NCBI GenBank assembly: GCA_020724885.1
Contig: DYGD01000008.1
Coordinates: 1-33,192 of the forward strand
DNA from: Candidatus Paceibacter sp.
Lineage (GTDB): Bacteria; Patescibacteriota; Minisyncoccia; Phycocordibacterales; BOKC01
Length of the DNA: 33,192 nt
Direction of reading: 5' to 3'
In this document: in pieces, positions 9,706 to 33,192 of the stretch
Position numbering within the stretch: position 1 is the first letter of the stretch
Layout: each line of letters begins with the position of its first letter
Notes under the pieces: generated by a model
What the model was told of the DNA's origin: nothing
What the model saw: only the letters and a program-made list of their open reading frames with translations
Databases searched by the model: none
Position numbers and translations under genes: made by a program

Positions 9706-9749
9706 AGAAGATACGTTTCAATGTACTAGTACATTGAAACGTATCTTCT
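9706..9749. repeat. 44-base perfect palindrome at the 3' end of the TrpR-like gene
   Basis: The sequence is perfectly self-complementary about the centre CTAG at 9726-9729. The inner 28 bases (half-site CGTTTCAATGTACT) are identical to those of the second palindrome at 10298-10345, while the outer arms differ (AGAAGATA here). It provides the last seven codons and the TAG stop of the minus-strand regulator gene. It could be an operator (its GTACTAGTAC centre resembles trp-operator CTAG half-sites), a hairpin, or a small palindromic mobile element. Confidence 0.9.
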
Positions 9750-10297: not shown

Positions 10298-10345
10298 AAC
10301 AACCCTCCGTTTCAATGTACTAGTACATTGAAACGGAGGGTTGTT
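10298..10345. repeat. 48-base perfect palindrome upstream of the TrpR-like gene
   Basis: Perfect dyad about CTAG (10320-10323). The inner 28 bases are identical to the 9706-9749 palindrome, then different arms (AACAACCCTC) pair perfectly. It lies between the divergent TrpR-like and FBPase genes, 54 bases from each start. The position suits an operator for both promoters or, as RNA, a very stable hairpin. Confidence 0.9.
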
Positions 10346-15237: not shown

Positions 15238-16158
15238 ATGGTGACCGCAGAGACTGAAGCGACGGCCTCTCTGCCGTCTTCGCGTTCCGCACGGCTCGGG
15301 GTTCTCTTCTTCGTCGTCGCGCCTCCCATCGGCCTGATTTTGGCAATCTGGCTGGCCTGGGGCAATGGGGTCTATGCTCTGGACATCGGACAACTCATCT
15401 TCTGGCACACTATTACCGGACTGGGAGTGACTGTCGGCTTCCACCGACTTTTCACTCATGCCTCGTTCAAGACAAGCGCTCCGGTAAAAGCCGTGCTGGG
15501 AATCTTGGGTTCAATGACGATCCAAGGGAATTTGTTCAAATGGTGCGCCGTTCACATGAAGCACCATTCCCACAGCGACAAAGAAGGCGACCCTCACTCG
15601 CCCCACGCTTACGGAAAAGGATTCTGGGCGGTCTGGCGCGGATTCTGGCACGCCCACTTCGGATGGTTGTTCTCTCACGAGATGACTCACTCCGAAATGG
15701 ACAAGCAGACAAAGAGGTTTAGAAAAGAACCTCTTCTGGTCTGGATTGACCGTTTCTTCCTCCTTTGGGTTGTCTTGGGACTTGCTTTCCCGTCTCTCAT
15801 TGGGTGGCTTTTTACCGGCACTTGGGAAGGAGCCCTTCGCGGTTTCCTCTGGGGAGGAATCATCCGAGTGGGAACCGTACACCACGCCACCTGGAGCATC
15901 AATTCCGTCTGCCATATTTGGGGACGGAAAGATTTCCGAAGCGACGATCAGAGCCGTAACAACTGGATCTTCGGCATCCTGGGATGGGGTGAGGGTTGGC
16001 ACAACGGCCATCACGCTTTCCTCTGGTCCGCCAAACATGGGCTTCTGCGCTGGCAGATTGACCCATCCTGGTGGATAATCAAGACGATGTCTTGGTTGGG
16101 GCTAGCAAGGGACATCAAGGTCCCTACGCCGAGCCAAATTGAAAAGGAGCGAAGCTGA
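15238..16158 (+). CDS. membrane fatty acid (acyl-CoA/lipid) desaturase
   Basis: Introduces a double bond into acyl chains using a di-iron centre, in the membrane. The 306-residue protein has the three histidine boxes of the delta-9 family: HRLFTH (69-74), HMKHH (106-110) and HNGHH (255-259). There are four or so membrane helices (about 20-40, 50-68, 85-100, 175-200). AAGGAG lies before the ATG and a strong terminator follows. The enzyme needs oxygen and electrons from a partner not seen here. CPR bacteria usually lack fatty acid synthesis, so scavenged host lipids are the likely substrate (inference). It is GC-richer than its neighbours and may be acquired. Confidence 0.92.
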   Translation: MVTAETEATASLPSSRSARLGVLFFVVAPPIGLILAIWLAWGNGVYALDIGQLIFWHTITGLGVTVGFHRLFTHASFKTSAPVKAVLGILGSMTIQGNLFKWCAVHMKHHSHSDKEGDPHSPHAYGKGFWAVWRGFWHAHFGWLFSHEMTHSEMDKQTKRFRKEPLLVWIDRFFLLWVVLGLAFPSLIGWLFTGTWEGALRGFLWGGIIRVGTVHHATWSINSVCHIWGRKDFRSDDQSRNNWIFGILGWGEGWHNGHHAFLWSAKHGLLRWQIDPSWWIIKTMSWLGLARDIKVPTPSQIEKERS

Positions 16159-21431: not shown

Positions 21432-21487
21432 CACCCAGCACCACTTTTTGCCCTCGGGCAAAAAGTGGTGCTGGGTGTTTTCTTTTT
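21432..21487 (+). terminator. strong rho-independent terminator
   Basis: A perfect 21-base stem (21432-21452 with 21457-21477) with a four-base loop, followed by TTTTCTTTTT. It separates the DHODH-like transcript from tRNA-Ala. Confidence 0.9.
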
Positions 21488-22457: not shown

Positions 22458-22482
22458 CACCAACAAGGAATCAGGCAACCCG

Positions 22483-22532
22483 AACCACCATCCGATTTGC
22501 CAAAGGCAAATCGGATGGTGGTTCTTTTCTTT
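22483..22532 (+). terminator. strong terminator after the OPRTase-like gene
   Basis: A 19-base perfect stem (22483-22501 with 22505-22523), AAA loop, then CTTTTCTTT. It ends just before the convergent antiporter gene. Confidence 0.9.
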
Positions 22533-31135: not shown

Positions 31136-31178
31136 GTGTCAGATGTGTTAGATAGGCACCATCTAACACATCTGACAC
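31136..31178. repeat. inverted repeat 1 after ychF
   Basis: An 18-base perfect stem (31136-31153 with 31161-31178) around AGGCACC. No T-run follows. It may act as a bidirectional hairpin between convergent genes. Confidence 0.75.
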
Positions 31179-31757: not shown

Positions 31758-32687
31758 ATGAAAACTTCACCAAAAGATTTTTTTCTTCATCTGGCTGTTA
31801 TCGCTTCACTCTATACAATAGCCGTCAGTTTTATAAATCTGGCCTGGCGGATTATTGACTATGTTTTTCCCTCCGGAAATTTTTACGGATATTATGAACG
31901 AACACTCTCCGCGCCGGTTGCTACTTTAATTGTTGTTTTTCCAATTTTCATAATTCTATACTGGCTTTTAAATCGGGAATATCAAAAAATACCGGAAAAA
32001 AGAAATCTTTGGATTAGAAAGTGGCTTGTTTATATCACCTTATTTCTCTCCGGCATCGTAATAGTGGTTGACTTGATCGTTGTGTTAATTTCTTTTCTCG
32101 GCGGAGAACTTTTGACCGTCGGCTTTGTCCTAAAAGCTCTTGCGGTATTTATCGTCGCTCTGGCAATTTTTGGCTATTACATCGTTGACTTGCGCGGACA
32201 AACGACTTCTAAAATAAATAAAATTTCCGCTTGGGCTTCCGGTCTTATAATTCTTATTCTGATTATTTCCGGATTTTCAATTTTAGGTTCACCCCGCACC
32301 CAACGTCTATTGCGGATTGACGAACAAAAGATTGGAGATTTGCAGAATATCCAGTGGCAAGTGGTTAATTTCTGGCAAAATAAAGGGGAAGTGCCAAAAA
32401 CTCTTGCCGATTTATCCGACCCGATTTCCGGTTTTATTGCGCCTCGCGACCCACAGAGCGGGGAAGCGTATGGATATCGTGTTTTAAGCGCGCCTTTAAC
32501 TTTTGAACTTTGCGCTAATTTTAATTTGGAGAGCCGCCCCGTATATCGGGGGACTGCGTCCCCCGATATACGGGGCTTTGACCTCCCCAAACCTATCACT
32601 CCGCAGGACTCCTGGAACCATCCAGCCGGCAACCATTGCTTTGAAAGAACCATAGACCCGGAGCTCTACCCCCACACCAAAAGATAA
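31758..32687 (+). CDS. DUF5671-like membrane protein with pilin-like tail
   Basis: A 309-residue protein with five membrane helices (about 8-30, 52-71, 88-113, 119-143, 156-176) resembling the DUF5671 family common in CPR bacteria. A soluble C-terminal part follows (180-309). RIDEQKIGDLQNIQWQVVNF...VPKTLADL...PRDPQSGEAYGYRV recalls pseudopilin-like domains. A perfect hairpin lies in frame at 32538-32578 (residues about 261-274, RPVYRGTASPDIRG), probably an insertion. A second hairpin at 32667-32709 holds the stop codon. Function unknown. Confidence 0.75.
   Translation: MKTSPKDFFLHLAVIASLYTIAVSFINLAWRIIDYVFPSGNFYGYYERTLSAPVATLIVVFPIFIILYWLLNREYQKIPEKRNLWIRKWLVYITLFLSGIVIVVDLIVVLISFLGGELLTVGFVLKALAVFIVALAIFGYYIVDLRGQTTSKINKISAWASGLIILILIISGFSILGSPRTQRLLRIDEQKIGDLQNIQWQVVNFWQNKGEVPKTLADLSDPISGFIAPRDPQSGEAYGYRVLSAPLTFELCANFNLESRPVYRGTASPDIRGFDLPKPITPQDSWNHPAGNHCFERTIDPELYPHTKR
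32538..32578. repeat. in-frame hairpin inside the DUF5671-like gene
   Basis: An 18-base perfect stem (32538-32555 with 32561-32578) around CTGCG, within an intact reading frame. The arms begin GCCCCGTATATCGG. It looks like a palindromic repeat element tolerated in a coding region. Confidence 0.85.
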
Positions 32688-32735: not shown

Positions 32736-32767
32736 AAAAAAAGCCGCGCTGTTTGCACAGACACGGC
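32736..32767 (-). terminator. terminator of the CRISPR transcript
   Basis: On the minus strand GCCG...CTGT pairs with ACAG...CGGC (32743-32767, small internal loop) and is followed by seven T residues. It lies 15 bases beyond the degenerate end repeat, so the array is probably transcribed right to left. Confidence 0.65.
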
Positions 32768-32781
32768 CCTCGTTCACCACA

Positions 32782-33192
32782 CACACCTTGACCTTCTTCC
32801 GTCTTTAGAGGGTTCCCTCACCTGAAATTGACCGCGGATTCCACGGCCAAAAGTAGCCGACCCCCCCTTCCTCTGTTGAGGGGGTTCCCTCACTGAATCA
32901 GCATTGATGTTAGTTACATCGCTGGGTAGCCGACCCCCCTTCCTCTGTTGAGGGGGTTCCCTCACTCAAATATGGTGCAATACGCGGCTCTCACAAGTAG
33001 CCGACCCCCCTTCCTCTGTTGAGGGGGTTCCCTCACTTCTGACGGACAAAAGCAAACTTGGCCAGTTAGTAGCCGACCCCCCTTCCTCTGTTGAGGGGGT
33101 TCCCTCACTTAACGTGGTGATGGTCGGCGAGATGCGGGAGTAGCCGACCCCCCTTCCTCTGTTGAGGGGGTTCCCTCACCAGTCCAAAATGA
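32782..33192 (-). CRISPR. CRISPR array (partial, runs off the window)
   Basis: There are five full 40-base repeats plus one degenerate end copy. Each begins GTAGCCGACCCCCC and ends GGGGGTTCCCTCAC on the plus strand. Full copies: 32853-32893 (one extra C, 41 bases), 32926-32965, 32997-33036, 33069-33108 and 33140-33179. The degenerate copy is 32782-32821; its distal half has decayed. Spacers are 31-32 bases and all different (32822, 32894, 32966, 33037, 33109; a sixth begins at 33180). The decayed left end and the minus-strand terminator show that the leader, and any cas genes, lie to the right outside the window. In the transcribed direction the repeat folds as nested stems CCC/GGG and CCTC-AACA-GAGG with a two-base bulge. 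The type cannot be assigned. Confidence 0.95.

Follow-up and report, generated by a model that had tools for sequence, protein, structure and literature searches.

A likely Cas12f-type CRISPR locus whose twin arrays carry spacers from their own chromosome

Results

An array at the contig end and its inverted twin

The window analysed here (the whole stretch of 33,192 nucleotides) is C17, one of the 18 contigs of a genome of 0.59 Mb, and it stops at position 33192 inside an array of repeats that adjoins a gene for a membrane protein with a match to PF18920 (DUF5671; Pfam, E=2.9e-20). The array has five full repeats (32853-33179) with a period of 71-72 bases and spacers of 30-32 bases; its parts are listed in Table 1. 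The repeat, GTAGCCGACCCCCCTTCCTCTGTTGAGGGGGTTCCCTCAC, is 40 nt long (41 nt if one counts the A that precedes 6 of the 7 copies), and the decayed repeat at the trailer end is still 84-89% like the other copies over its last 19 bases. Near-identical direct repeats, unique spacers of similar length and a decayed terminal repeat are the marks of a CRISPR array, and the presence of a CRISPR-type array at the end of C17 is thus confirmed. An earlier note on this DNA had already called it a CRISPR array with a 40-base, C/G-rich repeat, and both points hold (26 of the 40 bases are G or C). The same note saw an unusual self-folding hairpin in the repeat. The repeat can indeed fold into a hairpin, but shuffling at constant composition gives folding energies that are just as good (z +0.05 and -0.81), so that an unusual hairpin finds no support beyond the G/C content. 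The minus-strand terminator that it placed beside the array is represented by a terminator-like hairpin followed by a T run, and the direction that it read from this terminator and the decayed repeat fits as well, the unassembled side being the right one.

Table 1. Features of the array at the end of contig C17 and their matches (positions are those of the window; s1 to s5, spacers)
Feature	Position	Strand	Match or basis
DUF5671 membrane-protein gene adjoining the array	31758..32687	plus	Pfam; 71% identical homologue in congener G001
Boundary (terminator and decayed last repeat), common to the C10 end	32736..32821	minus	C17/C10 end alignment
Terminator-like hairpin GCCGTGTCTGTGCAAACAGCGCGGC and T run, for leftward transcription	~32736-32768	minus	
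Decayed terminal repeat	32784..32821	minus	sequence
Spacer s1	32822..32852	minus	identical to C10:50488-50518, unnamed protein-coding frame
Repeat 1, one extra C	32853..32893	minus	sequence
Spacer s2	32894..32925	minus	identical to part of C8:28750-28782; 685-codon frame, surface-protein-like
Repeat 2	32926..32965	minus	
Spacer s3	32966..32996	minus	identical to C8:64166-64196, thymidylate synthase-like gene
Repeat 3	32997..33036	minus	
Spacer s4	33037..33068	minus	31 bases identical to C15:32314-32344, galU-like nucleotidyltransferase gene
Repeat 4	33069..33108	minus	
Spacer s5	33109..33139	minus	one mismatch to C2:13874-13905, pilT-like ATPase gene
Repeat 5	33140..33179	minus	
First 13 bases of next spacer, up to contig end	33180..33192	minus	
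Source (protospacer) of C10 spacer t1	C17 15280..15310	plus	within fatty-acid desaturase gene 15238-16158

A second array stands at the end of contig C10, where it follows the boundary sequence also seen on C17. Over their last 55 bases C17 and C10 are identical, which is what one expects where an assembler meets a repeated stretch (a branch point, if our k-mer reading is right). In the congener G001, the one further genome of this family that was compared, leuS is the next gene after the DUF5671 homologue, 428 bases away and in the same orientation, and in the window genome C17 ends just after the DUF5671 gene while C10 ends just upstream of leuS. Since these flanking genes adjoin in G001, the two contig ends should face each other and their arrays should be inverted twins; and since the synteny with G001 spans both ends and the source of the C10 spacer t1 lies on C17, both contigs can be assigned to one genome. 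A pair of inverted arrays, terminators outward, around an unassembled centre between the DUF5671 gene and leuS is therefore well supported. The C10 array (L002) has ten extra bases, GTAAGAGCTA, between t1 and the following repeat, and this repeat has one changed base.

Other features of the window may be recorded here. Perfect long hairpins with a common core, CGTTTCAATGTACTAGTACATTGAAACG, occur at 9706-9749 and 10298-10345, more perfect hairpins at 21432-21477, 22482-22524 and 31136-31178, and a perfect 19-base palindrome (32536-32576) lies inside the DUF5671 coding region, where the G001 protein differs. The fatty-acid desaturase gene from which t1 derives (Pfam PF00487) is thus carried by a genome of 0.59 Mb.

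The spacers come from the chromosome that carries them

Searched against their own genome, all five window spacers match ordinary genes, each with one match outside both arrays; four match over at least 31 bases, and s5 has one mismatch in 31. Both spacers of the twin array are also self (the second matches C8:67942, ribosomal protein L11-like), which makes 7/7 for the two arrays together. The names of the source genes (thymidylate synthase-like, galU-like, pilT-like, ribosomal protein L11-like) are our reading of the translations. Each spacer matches over one contiguous stretch of 30-32 bases, six of the seven without internal mismatch, and the self origin of the spacers is firm. For comparison, self spacers make up about 0.4% of all spacers in one survey, as cited by a review (PMC6990116). 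Spacers taken from mobile or foreign DNA are a typical, if not strictly defining, trait of CRISPR arrays, and the earlier note had proposed to look for such foreign matches; all seven readable spacers lead to the cell's own chromosome instead, a point that the note had missed. On the window strand four spacers run in the sense of their genes and three in antisense, without strand bias, and around 16 protospacers (window genome and the relatives described below) no position exceeds 0.35 bits, so that no PAM or other shared flanking motif appears.

Six of the seven spacers agree with the genome as it now stands, free of internal mismatches, so that they were acquired recently. One may ask whether they were taken up from outside as the DNA of close kin and seem self only through shared sequence. 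The internal mismatch of s5 would agree with such an origin, and the pilT-like gene is compatible with DNA uptake; however, six of the seven match over 30-32 bases with no internal mismatch, in contrast to the DNA identity of ~65-79% between G001 and the window genome in aligned segments (91% at the one spacer found there), so that the donors would have to be very close strains, which is conceivable. We regard this origin as highly unlikely.

Neither Cas1 (PF01867) nor Cas12f (PDLC01689) was found in the assembled bin, from which the centre of the locus is missing. Two matches to PF07282 (the Cas12f/TnpB zinc ribbon) in the same genome fall below the cut-off, in short frames, and were rejected as effector candidates. 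The earlier note expected the effector genes beyond position 33192. Its direction stands, but no effector or cas1 is seen on that side: there is none in the bin, and across the gap comes the inverted array before leuS. No second array was found with the repeat and boundary in 397 genomes of the order. A gapped repeat pattern gave a single match in genome_contigs (L025), inside an acetyltransferase-like gene, which we attribute to chance, and the gapped and exact patterns gave none in viral_contigs, where the Cas12f alignment had one distant match. An Rfam search returned nothing above a gathering score. The repeat itself thus occurs nowhere else among the sequences searched, but it resembles repeats linked to cas1 in the same order.

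Related loci with cas1, Cas12f or both

Cas1 was detected in 19 of the 397 genomes sampled from the order, and the arrays beside these genes were read. In G190 (L064) a 649-residue Cas12f (PDLC01689, 736 bits, E=5.5e-222) and cas1 are flanked by two arrays that use one repeat in inverted orientation. A Cas12f (724 bits) also occurs with an array and a Cas1 of 327 residues in G411 (L093), which lies outside the order. In G322 (L073) a repeat of 40 bases adjoins a fragment of cas1; since the contig starts inside cas1, no effector is visible. G036 (L069) has a cas1 fragment with a weak Cas12f match (38.5 bits). Two further Cas12f loci have repeats on both sides, in opposite orientation in G054 (L082) and in the same orientation in G079 (L083), and neither genome gave a match to Cas1.

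Several details of these loci are worth noting. The G190 Cas1 frame (L064:12819-13583) is without the N-terminal domain, and the Cas1 of G036 (L069:9354-9917) appears to be without the part carrying the catalytic His and Asp. The two G190 arrays (L064:12740-12800 and 15960-16040) have the last spacer, the trailer and the outer leader sequence in common, so that one looks copied from the other. Directly upstream of Cas12f stand small frames of 86 codons (L082:8967-9227) and 84 codons (L083:10427-10681), with no PADLOC match and at most a weak Pfam match to DUF5667.

The window repeat is most similar to that of G322 (z=4.5), followed by G079 (z=3.4) and G190 (z=3.2, both in the leftward direction), with about 2 for G054 and 1.3 for G036, these being uncorrected scores of short G/C-rich sequences, to which base composition contributes. 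A Cas9 repeat from the order reaches z=2.8, and type V-A (Cas12a-type) repeats give no significant match. The window repeat may also resemble that of Un1Cas12f1. The locus likely belongs to a Cas12f-type CRISPR system, its effector being predicted from the relatives.

The related loci bear as well on whether the repeats are CRISPR at all, or a family of another kind that captures short chromosomal pieces, such as a TIGR-type array of guides or a repeat that can transpose. No cas genes are visible here and the repeats form inverted twin blocks, as such a family might; but it would have to explain regular repeats of 40-41 bases, unique spacers of 30-32 bases, a decayed end repeat and a terminator, and similar arrays adjoin cas1 and cas12f in the relatives. 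TIGR guides carry two short spacers, and the paired spacers of ~9 nt per unit of TIGR-Tas are not found; the contiguous 30-base matches do not fit such guides. We give this reading almost no credence.

Self spacers and an altered RuvC site in the relatives

When the spacers of the relatives were searched in their own genomes, self matches were found in G036 (3/3), G190 (3/8), G322 (1/3) and G411 (2/3, one of them 30/31), that is 9/17 in four genomes, of which G322 and G036 are grouped with G190 and G411 by cas1, repeats and spacers and not by a clear effector. One of the G411 spacers we take, from its sequence, to come from 16S rRNA. No self spacer was found in four Cas12a-type (V-A) controls (0/37), in a Cas9 control (0/8), or in the Cas12f loci without detected cas1 (0/24; G054 0/13, G079 0/11). 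The difference between the relatives and the V-A and Cas9 controls (9/17 versus 0/45) gives p=1.2e-6 by Fisher's test, and p=3.8e-10 (16/24 versus 0/45) with the window genome, which is the case that prompted the test; the numbers are low, the spacers of an array depend on one another and the bins are incomplete.

These controls also speak to the idea that the gap holds a working system of another type (V-D/CasY or type II, for example), for which the self sites would be harmless since they have no PAM. The gap is unassembled and a Cas9 repeat from the order shows weak similarity, so there is room for such a system, but the controls of type V-A and Cas9 show no self spacer at all, and seven of seven would be unexpected where invaders are normally recorded. 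We think that this is decidedly unlikely. The earlier note had suggested an unusual compact effector of the CasY/Cas12d kind; a compact effector is plausible, but the relatives point to a Cas12f-like protein without its cutting site rather than to CasY.

In an alignment of the relatives' effectors, made partly by hand, the RuvC-I Asp is replaced by His, His, His and Ser in the four PDLC01689 proteins of G190, G054, G079 and G411 (motifs GIHF, GIHF, GVHF and GISL; GIDR in the TnpB protein of L094), and the RuvC-III Asp is lost in three of the four, being kept only in G190. Cas12m2, whose active site is HDD with His at RuvC-I, binds and silences its target without cutting (PMC10442227). As the RuvC-I Asp is replaced, and Cas12m2 with its His silences without cutting, the relatives' Cas12f is predicted not to cut, and it appears to have lost its DNA-cutting site; by analogy, the effector of the window genome may be a non-cutting one as well. 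The loss of the cutting site is by itself no predictor of self spacers, because G054 and G079 have neither self spacers nor a detected cas1.

Discussion

We think that the best explanation is a Cas12f-like locus whose acquisition samples the cell's own chromosome, and that this is tolerated since the effector cannot cut; the chances that it is right seem to us evenly balanced. The unassembled centre would hold a Cas12f-like operon with cas1, as in the related loci, and both arrays would be transcribed outward. Cas1 would capture fragments of the most abundant DNA, which is the chromosome, with no choice between self and non-self, and the cell would survive because an effector of Cas12f type without a RuvC active site binds but does not cut. 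Tolerated self-sampling would then be the default, and the bound guides may silence the matched genes or do nothing.

The self origin of all seven spacers, the recurrence of self spacers in four relatives, the arrays that accompany cas12f and cas1 in G190 and G411, the likeness of the repeat to those of G322 and G190, and the replaced RuvC-I Asp in four PDLC01689 proteins argue for this explanation. Against it stand the failure to find cas1 or Cas12f in a bin whose locus centre is missing, the fact that in G322, whose repeat comes closest, the contig has just a fragment of cas1 and lacks a visible effector, the weak effector match of G036 (whose Cas1 seems to have lost its catalytic middle part), the short and partly compositional repeat comparisons in which a Cas9 repeat also scores, and the derivation of the RuvC-I substitution from a sequence alignment.

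Part of this evidence can be read in another way, namely that the locus is an orphan or a dying one, in which self spacers built up after the loss of interference and deletion or breakage of the effector genes followed, leaving no present function. The missing Cas1 and Cas12f, the truncated Cas1 and weak effector match of G036, and a Roizmanbacterium with a fragmented CasY and 12/22 self spacers (PMC6509639) would all suit such a decay. The match of six of the seven spacers to the present genome, which suggests recent acquisition, would not, and the pattern is found again in genera that have cas1 and whose cas12f frame is open (G190, G411). A dying locus is thus a possibility to be taken seriously, if on balance an improbable one.

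Starting again from the preferred explanation of tolerated self-sampling, one can go further and imagine that the Cas12f systems of one clade, which have cas1 but an inactivated nuclease, have abandoned immunity and record pieces of the cell's own chromosome; these would serve the cell as heritable, rewritable guides for binding and tuning its genes. This proposal is speculative, and we consider it unlikely.

One expects CRISPR arrays to avoid self. In this genome entire arrays are self, and self spacers recur in relatives with an apparently non-cutting effector. The locus therefore offers a natural setting in which to ask whether the choice between self and non-self at acquisition depends on killing by the effector, and it also raises the question whether cutting-deficient Cas12f systems became gene regulators.

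Comparison with known systems

Self spacers beside a disabled effector are already known in candidate-phyla bacteria, from the Roizmanbacterium locus and from an earlier survey that found self spacers in 2/9 arrays (PMC4742961). Our literature search, which left many journals outside, found no account of cutting-deficient Cas12f loci with self spacers. What is new, as far as the searches reach, is a wholly self pair of arrays and its link to a cas1-bearing, apparently cutting-deficient Cas12f across genera.

Three known systems come close. The V-F loci (Cas12f/Cas14, PDLC01689) of G190 and G411 share with the window locus a similar repeat length and motif layout and many self spacers; they have spacers of 29-33 bases and cas1, and G190 also has twin inverted arrays. 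Unlike them, the locus of the window genome is known without a visible effector or cas1 and its repeat is longer, and its arrays appear to run outward whereas those of G190 run inward. The fragmented CasY (V-D) locus of Roizmanbacteria (PMC6509639) likewise belongs to a small-genome host of the candidate phyla, has an impaired effector and holds many self spacers (12/22), but its self sites have TA/TG PAMs, whereas here all spacers are self and no motif is seen. Finally, Cas12m (V-M; PMC10442227) resembles the relatives' Cas12f in the replacement of the RuvC-I Asp by His, which makes binding without cutting plausible; Cas12m2 targets invaders, at a TTN PAM, and neither this function nor such a PAM is seen in the window locus.
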